Shown here: piece after piece, positions 7,946-9,108 of the stretch
Layout of the letters: each line of letters begins with the position of its first letter
Numbering within the stretch: the stretch's first letter is position 1
Assembly: GCF_024734385.1 (NCBI RefSeq)
Contig: NZ_JANHAP010000005.1
Coordinates: forward strand, 62,001-126,000
From: Dasania sp. GY-MA-18
GTDB lineage: Bacteria > Pseudomonadota > Gammaproteobacteria > Pseudomonadales > Dasaniaceae
DNA: 64,000 nt
Direction of reading: 5' to 3'
Made by a program: the position numbers and the translations under genes
Notes under the pieces: model-generated
What the model was told of the DNA's origin: nothing
Seen by the model: only the letters and a program-made list of their open reading frames with translations
Database searches by the model: none

Positions 7946-8034
7946 CAATTTCGTGTTCACAGCAGCGTTACTTTGCTCTATAATCTCGCCCATCTTAAGG
8001 CGGTAACACATAGATTGTAATGCCTAAGAAGTTT

Positions 8035-8111
8035 CGGGGCGTAGCGCAGTCTGGTAGCGCACCACACTGGGGGTGTGGTGGTCGCAGGTTCAAATCCTGC
8101 CGTTCCGACCA
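8035..8111 (+). tRNA. tRNA-Pro (anticodon GGG)
   Basis: A 77-base cloverleaf with encoded CCA. The acceptor stem is CGGGGCG/CGTTCCG (two G-T pairs), the D arm contains AGCGCAGTCTGGTAGCGC, the anticodon stem is CCACA/TGTGG with loop CTGGGGG (anticodon GGG, reads CCC/CCU), and the T arm is GCAGGTTCAAATCCTGC. The position after the ihfA-merR pair is the same as in Pseudomonas. Confidence 0.97.
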
Positions 8112-8120
8112 TCTTAAATA

Positions 8121-8156
8121 AAAAAGGGCCATGCGATAGCATGGCCCTTTTTTATT
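8121..8156 (+). terminator. Terminator after tRNA-Pro
   Basis: GGGCCATG (8126-8133) pairs with CATGGCCC (8140-8147) around CGATAG and is followed by TTTTTTATTT. This ends the tRNA transcript. A 17-base part of it, including the T-tract, is repeated exactly at 8332-8348, which marks the start of the repeat array. Confidence 0.85.
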
Positions 8157-8790
8157 TAACCTGCCGAAACGGCAGGACTTGCTCGTTAAAGCGCCCAGGT
8201 TCACAGCTTGTCCCTACGGGACAAGATGCTACGAGCCGCATAGCGGCGATGCCCGAAGGGGCAAAACAGCCTCAAGCTGTTTTGATACAATCCTGCAACG
8301 ATAGTTAAACTCGTGCGGTTCTTGTGCGAAAGCATGGCCCTTTTTTATAACAAATTCCATTTAGAATGGAATTTGGACGACATCACAAACTGATGTTGCC
8401 CGCTTGCGGGTTGTAATGCCCCTCAGGGGATTACAATCCAACCTGCCGAAACGGCAGGACTTGCTATTCGCCACATCCTTGTGGCTCACCCTTCGGGTCG
8501 ACCTAAGGGTCGATCAAACAAGCTCCTGCAATTTTGTCGTTAAAGCGCCCAGGTTCACAAATTATCCCTAGGGGATAATTTGGACGAGGAGCAACGCGAC
8601 GATGCCCCGAAGGGGGAATTACAGCATCAAGCTGTAATTCTCAAATCCTGCAACGATCTTCTAGGTATCACCAAAACTACCGCGAAAGCCCCCCCATTTT
8701 TATTACAAATCCCATTTAGAATAGAATTGAGACAACATCACAAAGTGCTGTTGCCCGCTTGCGGGTTGTAATGCCCTTTGGGGGATTACC
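8139..8790 (+). repeat. Hairpin-dense repeat array downstream of tRNA-Pro
   Basis: About 650 non-coding bases made of partly duplicated modules packed with at least ten small hairpins. Exact repeats include 17 bases (8139-8155 = 8332-8348), 26 bases (8158-8183 = 8440-8465), 22 bases (8184-8205 = 8538-8559), 14 bases (8289-8302 = 8644-8657) and 27 bases (8395-8421 = 8750-8776). Between the exact blocks, hairpins keep position but change stem sequence: CTTGTCCC/GGGACAAG versus CAAATTATCCC/GGGATAATTTG, and CAAAACAGC/GCTGTTTTG versus GAATTACAGC/GCTGTAATTC. The block at 8641 shares TCAAATCCTGC with the tRNA T arm. E. coli tyrT has comparable tRNA-tail repeats (rtT). Whether this is a transcribed RNA or a mobile palindrome cluster is not decided by the sequence. 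Confidence 0.8.
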
Positions 8791-9108
8791 ATCAAACCGG
8801 TGAAACGCTGGGTTTGTTCTTTGGCAAGCACCACAATTACGAGCATAGCTACCACGATAATTAAACTCACGCCATTCCAATGCAAAAACGCACAGTTTTC
8901 AAATAAATTTATTGAGCTACAACCCTACACAATAAATCCCTACATCTACCACGCCATCCTTTTTCATCCATCATTACATCAAGCTTATCCCAGTCACCCA
9001 CTCAAAAATTATTAGCAAAAACTTACACTTCCTCGAACCAATGCACTAATAAAGTGCATAAATATCGCTATCAATTAAGGATTAAAAGAAACCATCCTTT
9101 TTCTGGAA

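Follow-up and report, generated by a model that had tools for sequence, protein, structure and literature searches.

Four-hairpin cassettes in the T-loops of spare tRNA tails of Dasania and related bacteria

Behind the tRNA-Pro(GGG) gene of Dasania sp. GY-MA-18 lies an array of hairpins that belongs to a wide family of cassettes. Each cassette carries four hairpins (P1 to P4), most cassettes sit in the T-loop of a spare copy of a tRNA 3' tail, they lie there in one orientation, and their modules differ between copies as blocks. The reading that we prefer, with middling confidence, is that of a hairpin cassette family of the DNA level, lodged in the T-loops of spare tRNA tails. From the comparison of copies we infer that the cassettes are kept up on the DNA and move as folded strands. 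Positions are those of the window, the whole stretch of 64,000 nucleotides that was analysed (contig NZ_JANHAP010000005.1, positions 62,001 to 126,000).

The array behind tRNA-Pro and its relatives

The features of the array are collected in Table 1. A preliminary description of this DNA had reported repeats and hairpins in the gap behind tRNA-Pro, and we find them where it placed them: an exact 26-base block starts at 8158 and again at 8440, and the paired stems CTTGTCCC/GGGACAAG stand against CAAATTATCCC/GGGATAATTTG in one contrast and CAAAACAGC/GCTGTTTTG against GAATTACAGC/GCTGTAATTC in a second. Direct repeats in the array are spaced 354 to 355 bases apart (106 nt at 87%, 45 nt at 78% and 42 nt at 88%), the 3' half of the palindrome behind the tRNA has a further copy at 8325-8348, and the hairpin that opens unit 1 is found as an other-strand self-match, at 88% in one search and 85% in another. 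When positions 8112-8800 are folded as RNA the z-score is -12.0, and none of 20 shuffles is equally stable. The cassettes of the window measure about 85 bases, with four hairpins each.

Table 1. Features of the array behind tRNA-Pro(GGG), in window positions; R1 is the covariance model described in the text
Feature	Position	Strand	Evidence or remark
tRNA-Pro(GGG), source of the tail copies	8035-8111	+	ARAGORN; Rfam tRNA 63.3 bits
Terminator-like palindrome directly 3' of tRNA-Pro, 21-base perfect arms	8114-8159	+	Repeat/palindrome search
Hairpin AACCTGCCGAAACGGCAGGACTTGCT, inverted copy of the tRNA T-arm/acceptor 3' side, opens unit 1	8158-8183	+	
GGTTCA, left half of the split T-loop, unit 1	8198-8203	+	
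Cassette 1 (P1-P4)	8204-8288	+	R1 64.7 bits; among the model's own members
AATCCTGC, right half of the split T-loop and T-stem, unit 1	8289-8296	+	tRNA-Pro has GGTTCAAATCCTGC
Cassette 2, four-hairpin layout as in cassette 1, outside any T-loop	8351-8439	+	R1 39.7 bits; not in the model
26-base inverted tail hairpin, second exact copy, opens unit 2	8440-8465	+	
Small further hairpins, doubtful cassette remnant	8465-8536	-	R1 15.8 bits, E 0.075
GGTTCA, left half of the split T-loop, unit 2	8552-8557	+	
Cassette 3 (P1-P4); P1, P2 and P4 stems differ from cassette 1	8558-8643	+	R1 81.5 bits; model member
AATCCTGC, right half of the split T-loop, unit 2	8644-8651	+	
Decayed tandem duplicate of cassette 2, stems partly unpaired	8706-8794	+	Within the 87% repeat 8693-8798

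We use a covariance model, R1, made from 23 aligned cassettes without their flanks, two of which come from the window. R1 finds three copies in the window (E = 9.9e-17, 6.1e-13 and 2.8e-7), the first two being among its source sequences and only the third an independent match. In the tandem duplicate 8338-8443 / 8693-8798 the second copy has several stem changes that lack a compensating partner, so the hairpins of the array are not all kept; R1 gives no match to the decayed cassette at 8706-8794 up to E 5. Cassettes 1 and 3 are 0.72 identical and their flanks 0.80 and 0.60, so that a swap of modules is not proven by the window alone and the case is carried by other loci. Leaving aside the array and its inverted part, a search of its own genome gives seven places that resemble it, of which several adjoin tRNA genes.

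How widely is the cassette spread? In its own family R1 gives 116 matches at E <= 0.01, with all 10 genomes represented. Two wider searches ran with filters under which weak matches are lost: in the order, 64 of 293 genomes (27 of 118 genera) carry it at E <= 1e-4, and in a sample of the class beyond the order two of 320 genomes do, one of them barely (E 9.6e-5). A pattern for cassette-like DNA picks out 15 candidate stretches in named genome records, with the labels Oceanicoccus, Porticoccus or Porticoccaceae, Zhongshania, Haliea, Mangrovimicrobium, Spongiibacteraceae and, in one case, a Helicobacteraceae MAG, which may be misbinned. Phages gave no blastn match to 8112-8800 and plasmids none to 8536-8660; one pattern match in a viral contig looks like coding DNA in a record with no tRNA found, and we take it for chance.

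The counts below refer to the fetched loci, over which R1 makes 123 + 100 matches, 218 of them distinct. These come from 155 sources (81 + 74) chosen for matching R1 or the window and form a non-random sample, in which the order-level loci are the best matches of a longer list and from which L164 (overlapping L206) and L179 were left out.

The T-loop as the usual site

Across relatives the units share a common plan: a tRNA gene, often a terminator palindrome, often an inverted copy of the T-arm or the tail, then GGTTC(G/A)A, the four hairpins, and ATCC with more of the tail. The cassette usually lies in the T-loop of the copied tRNA 3' tail, after base 57 or 58 (GGTTCRA before the cassette and ATCC after it), the cassette ends being ambiguous by about one base. 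Units made of the tail, often a terminator, often an inverted T-arm, and the cassette are also found in tandem, where successive copies start roughly 130-355 bases apart.

Strict T-loop flanks, a pattern that misses some real cases, frame 144 of the 218 distinct matches: 65 of 122 in the own family, and 79 of 96 in the rest of the order together with one other genome of the class. A second flank pattern fits 119 of the 218 matches, compared with 0.4% of 20,000 places drawn at random, and no match has both flanks reversed. The model itself holds no flanks. The preliminary description had named ordinary scattered palindromic insertions as the outcome that would undo its account; about two thirds of the matches share a single tRNA position, so that scattered insertions do not quite fit.

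For the tRNA neighbourhood, the distances vary with the length of flanking DNA retrieved. A same-strand tRNA gene lies at most 450 bases upstream of 141 of the 218 matches; downstream a tRNA lies on the same strand in 10 and on the other strand in three, and in 64 there is none that near in the fetched DNA. Thirteen tRNA types are involved, with Arg (44), Ser (28), Met (16), Leu (11), Pro (10), Val (9) and Phe (9) followed by the rarer Lys (5), Asp (4), Glu (2), His (1), Gln (1) and Gly (1). The right flank agrees with the tail of its own upstream tRNA at 9.05 of 12 bases, where permuted pairings give 6.37 (maximum 6.73). Among the T-loop matches, CCA stands at the right distance in 47 of 112 near a tRNA and in 15 of 30 without one. 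One array with tRNA-Leu-like tails (L009:1424-1850) has no tRNA gene in the 3 kb fetched.

The preliminary description had also tied the copies to tRNA-tail and terminator-like sequence, and this link holds across the loci. A terminator-like hairpin separates the tRNA from the first cassette in 54 of 105 loci (shuffled mean 0.17), and a GAAC/GTTC hairpin is present in 58 of 142 against 8.4 in shuffles; only 36 of 142 have an upstream complement of the tail of at least six bases (permuted mean 14.7, maximum 24). More or less of the tRNA 5' side can be kept before the cassette (L054:212, L051:592, L249, L214 and L261); at L249:403-484 and L214:401-485 the tails come with parts of the tRNA 5' side and are not recognised as whole tRNAs. 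At L045:334-411 a tRNA-Arg tail, a terminator and an inverted tail form one very long palindrome that ends at the T-loop, which suggests strand switching between terminator and T-arm.

Other sites occur as well. Alignment to the tRNAs of the loci places the flanks at L133, L092 and L100 in anticodon loops and those at L129 and L122 in D-loops. We also considered a general hairpin-loop target, which is unsupported: in the joined 40-mer, 32 of 74 non-T-loop junctions fall in a predicted loop, compared with 59 of 144 T-loop junctions and 41.5% of random places. The idea of a tRNA intron was likewise set aside, as ARAGORN reads the joined flanks as a whole tRNA in one case of 218 (L046), where an intact tRNA-Arg copy follows.

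Some cassette-like blocks lie inside longer repeats away from tRNAs (L097, L098, L099, L102, L106 and L108, in genomes G000 and G001); some of these adjoin palindromes with GAAAGTAACC, and L097 shows apparent empty and filled versions of one repeat. In a further genome, G005, six near-identical 77-base cassettes (L112, L113, L114, L115 and L118) have GGGTC or a near form on both sides, and five of the six end a longer dispersed repeat.

The spare tail and its inverted copy may arise locally, through duplication or through template switching between the T-arm and terminator palindromes, and such an origin on the spot would account for the fit between tail and local tRNA. Insertions into the sole intact copy of a tRNA would be lost, and the survivors would therefore be those in spare tails.

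Paired stems and the exchange of modules

That the stems covary had been proposed from the window, and it holds over relatives. In an alignment made from sequence only (A1), whose structure is drawn from A1 itself, 91.3% of the cells pair and two-sided changes occur at 19 of 27 pairs. In the model-fitted set A3 (95 distinct sequences) the values are 93.6% and 27 of 27, with 424 two-sided cells against 88.9 in shuffles and a covariation score of 0.490 against 0.129 in shuffles and at most 0.075 for slid structures; pair counts in A2 and A3 lean towards the model structure. One-sided standard changes are rare.

The kind of change is informative. G-U pairs account for 100 of the 4,964 paired cells in the cassettes (2.0%, A2 and A3) compared with 167 of 2,717 (6.1%) in 121 tRNAs of the fetched loci, a control in which ARAGORN brackets show standard pairs only (0 of 2,717 others), so that the G-U share is valid and an A-C count would not be fair. 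The ratio of G-U to A-C in the cassettes is 100:52 (A2 and A3) and uneven by helix, from 46:14 in P4 to 6:9 in P3. Such scarcity of G-U is not the trace expected of slow compensation by way of G-U pairs. Unpaired positions carry on average slightly less information (0.88-0.90 bits) than paired ones (0.98-1.08 bits), and in the AC.AG linker between P1 and P2 some positions are kept at about 80-90% in both alignments.

Could the folded array, as DNA or RNA, serve the host, with selection keeping P1-P4 for use as a gyrase site, supercoil sink, back-up terminator, trailer RNA or decoy? The two-sided changes at every pair of A3, the conserved linker positions and the constant place behind tRNAs are what such a function would leave, yet we find this explanation rather doubtful: the A3 alignment is fitted to the structure, G-U pairs are few, the distribution over the order is patchy (the 64 of 293 genomes above, with filters losing weak matches), modules are replaced blockwise, and the second copy of window cassette 2 decays without compensation. 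Moreover, the L262 array is 16 kb away from its tRNA, with an island in between, and the L009 array lacks a tRNA within its 3 kb. Of the structured RNA that the preliminary description had in mind, the two-sided covariation stands, while the scarce G-U pairs and the terminator-like hairpin that precedes the first cassette in about half of the loci tell against it.

The same description had left a choice between selection on structure and swapping of hairpin modules. Swapping is what we see directly in other arrays, and selection at the RNA level is not borne out. In the array behind tRNA-Met of genome G000 (L091), five units share flanks at 87-100% identity and differ little in P3 and P4, while P1 reads CCAATTTCGCTTACAGCGGAATTGG in two units and CAAACTGTGTCTACGACACAGTTTG in three and the kind of P2 changes along with it; one unit holds an extra insert of 28 bases. 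At L008 the whole cassette is 0.57 identical between units whose flanks share 93% and 70% identity. A rough pattern for the P2 hairpin, under which 69 of the 218 cassettes stay unsorted, shows two kinds within the same locus in 10 of the fetched loci. Tandem pairs with a mean flank identity of at least 0.7 number 49, and are not independent of each other; their cassettes are below 0.7 in seven and at least 85% alike in 28, the latter being plain duplication. Finally, between the tRNA-Met arrays of G000 and G001 (two species of one genus), one pair of cassettes, chosen for its likeness, differs only at three P1 pairs, all of them compensated. Different P1 and P2 in units with like flanks, together with this compensated pair, point to modules exchanged or rewritten on the DNA rather than to slow compensation at the RNA level.

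A purely mutational history would need neither selection nor mobility: one old insertion into a spare tail, spread by tandem duplication and by recombination among tails, with strand switching keeping the arms complementary. It sits well with the many tandem copies, with two-sided changes where one-sided ones are rare, with three compensated pairs in an otherwise identical cassette, and with the lack of a recent burst described below. We nevertheless think it unlikely, because by itself it leaves unexplained one exact point in the T-loop across the tails of 13 tRNA types, the cassettes in anticodon loops, D-loops and unrelated repeats, and the replacement of hairpins by whole hairpins of another kind.

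On the reading that we prefer, a DNA-level cassette family in spare tRNA tails, a cassette would enter the spare tail and later be exchanged, travelling as a single strand in folded form or recombining through its short conserved links. The hairpins could stay perfect if one arm is copied from the other or if whole modules are exchanged, and a requirement that only the folded cassette be a substrate would add to this.

Mobility and comparison with known systems

Cassettes at different tRNAs within one genome have a mean identity of 0.616, and cassettes from different families one of 0.611; at the same tRNA the values are 0.644 within a family (141 pairs) and 0.723 within a genome (11 pairs). 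Copies of one genome are thus as unlike as copies from different families, and there is no sign of a recent burst or spread; clustering by genome or by tRNA shows almost no sequence signal.

Among known systems, the rtT repeats behind tyrT of E. coli are tandem repeats that include a copy of the tRNA 3' end, and the cassette arrays likewise repeat the 3' end of their upstream tRNA in tandem. We know of no T-loop hairpin cassette in rtT repeats, and the cassette layout, unlike theirs, recurs behind many tRNA species. The resemblance to rtT that had been noted from the window therefore stands for the tandem tRNA-tail repeats and is otherwise an analogy: Rfam at gathering score finds no family but tRNA, and so no RtT, in the whole window, and a permissive search of 8000-8900 up to E 5 gives tRNA and presumed chance matches, again with no RtT. 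Integrases use tRNA T-loops and anticodon loops as sites, and cassettes occupy these same sublocations; in contrast to integrase sites, no long att-core direct repeat surrounds the cassette, no integrase lies in the short units, and the island at L262 is separate.

REP and BIME palindromes, with their RAYT enzymes, are short intergenic palindromes that act as folded single strands and vary in their stems between copies (PMC3733652, PMC8266576). The cassettes share these traits, and a minority carry GTAG or CGTC tags; they differ in that four unlike hairpins follow one another in a set order and have their seat in tRNA T-loops. The repetitive hairpin-forming elements of sponge mitochondria are intergenic and thought mobile, with tandem insertion giving double hairpins, and they fall into two types that differ by a few complementary substitutions, stems being conserved and loops variable within a type (PMC2800124). 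Cassette stems, by contrast, change on both arms, and the cassettes usually sit in a tRNA loop. The nearest kinds are palindromic intergenic repeats (REP, BIME) and tRNA-tail arrays like rtT, and the cassettes fail a tested defining feature of each. At L003:630-670 the sequence GTCATGCCGGGCTCCGGCCCGGCATCCA resembles, by eye, an ordinary CGTC-type REP.

Are the cassettes members or derivatives of REP/RAYT or IS200/IS605-type elements, in which a Y1 transposase acts on folded single strands, cutting them and putting in one strand, always the same way round and without target duplication? One orientation, fixed flanks without a clear target duplication, and recurrent sequences at the borders (TCGA or TTCA on the left in most cases, and likewise ATCA, ATTA or ATTC at the right end) would agree with this, as would REP tags (GTAG or CGTC, on the other strand) beside P1 in 66 of 202 cassettes, a count from which 16 of the 218 with no clear P1 were dropped. 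Both tags are absent from the other 136, however, and none of 12 Y1-transposase loci searched in the family carries a cassette (13 were fetched; L187, overlapping L180, was left out). Four of the 10 family genomes with cassettes, some of them incomplete, have no Y1 match, as in G004 with its 17 R1 matches. We regard such a membership as quite improbable.

That the cassette is the end or attachment site of tRNA-integrated islands is scarcely credible: two solitary cassettes (L262 and L261) do have a tRNA with a similar tail about 16 kb away, and at L262 a tyrosine-recombinase-like gene, recognised by eye, is near the cassette end, but a separate tail copy with its own terminator stands between that gene and the cassette units, the L261 cassette sits in a degenerate second copy of tRNA-Lys where no integrase was recognised by eye, and tandem units start some 130-355 bases apart. 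The island at L262:222-17100, between tRNA-Ser and its array, holds HsdR/M/S-like, Fic-like, DUF262-like and tyrosine-recombinase-like genes (by eye). Because the separate tail copy precedes the cassette units, the island probably split a pre-existing pair of tRNA and array.

Going beyond the DNA-level family that we prefer, the cassettes might be a new class of mobile, modular single-strand DNA elements, with tRNA loops (the T-loop above all) as landing site, spare tails as harbours, exchange of whole hairpins and a putative recombinase; we put this forward tentatively, and the Y1 loci searched in the family yielded no mobilising enzyme linked to the cassettes. We found no described repeat family of this layout in a literature search that reached few subscription journals, and we do not claim its absence from print.

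Changes on both sides of a stem are commonly read as the sign of a functional RNA. This cassette family seems to yield the same signal by replacement of DNA blocks or by copying of one arm from the other, inside units whose flanks are nearly identical. With a repeat that keeps a nearly fixed T-loop position behind many tRNA genes, the question of what writes the hairpins is one that can be tested in culturable marine bacteria.
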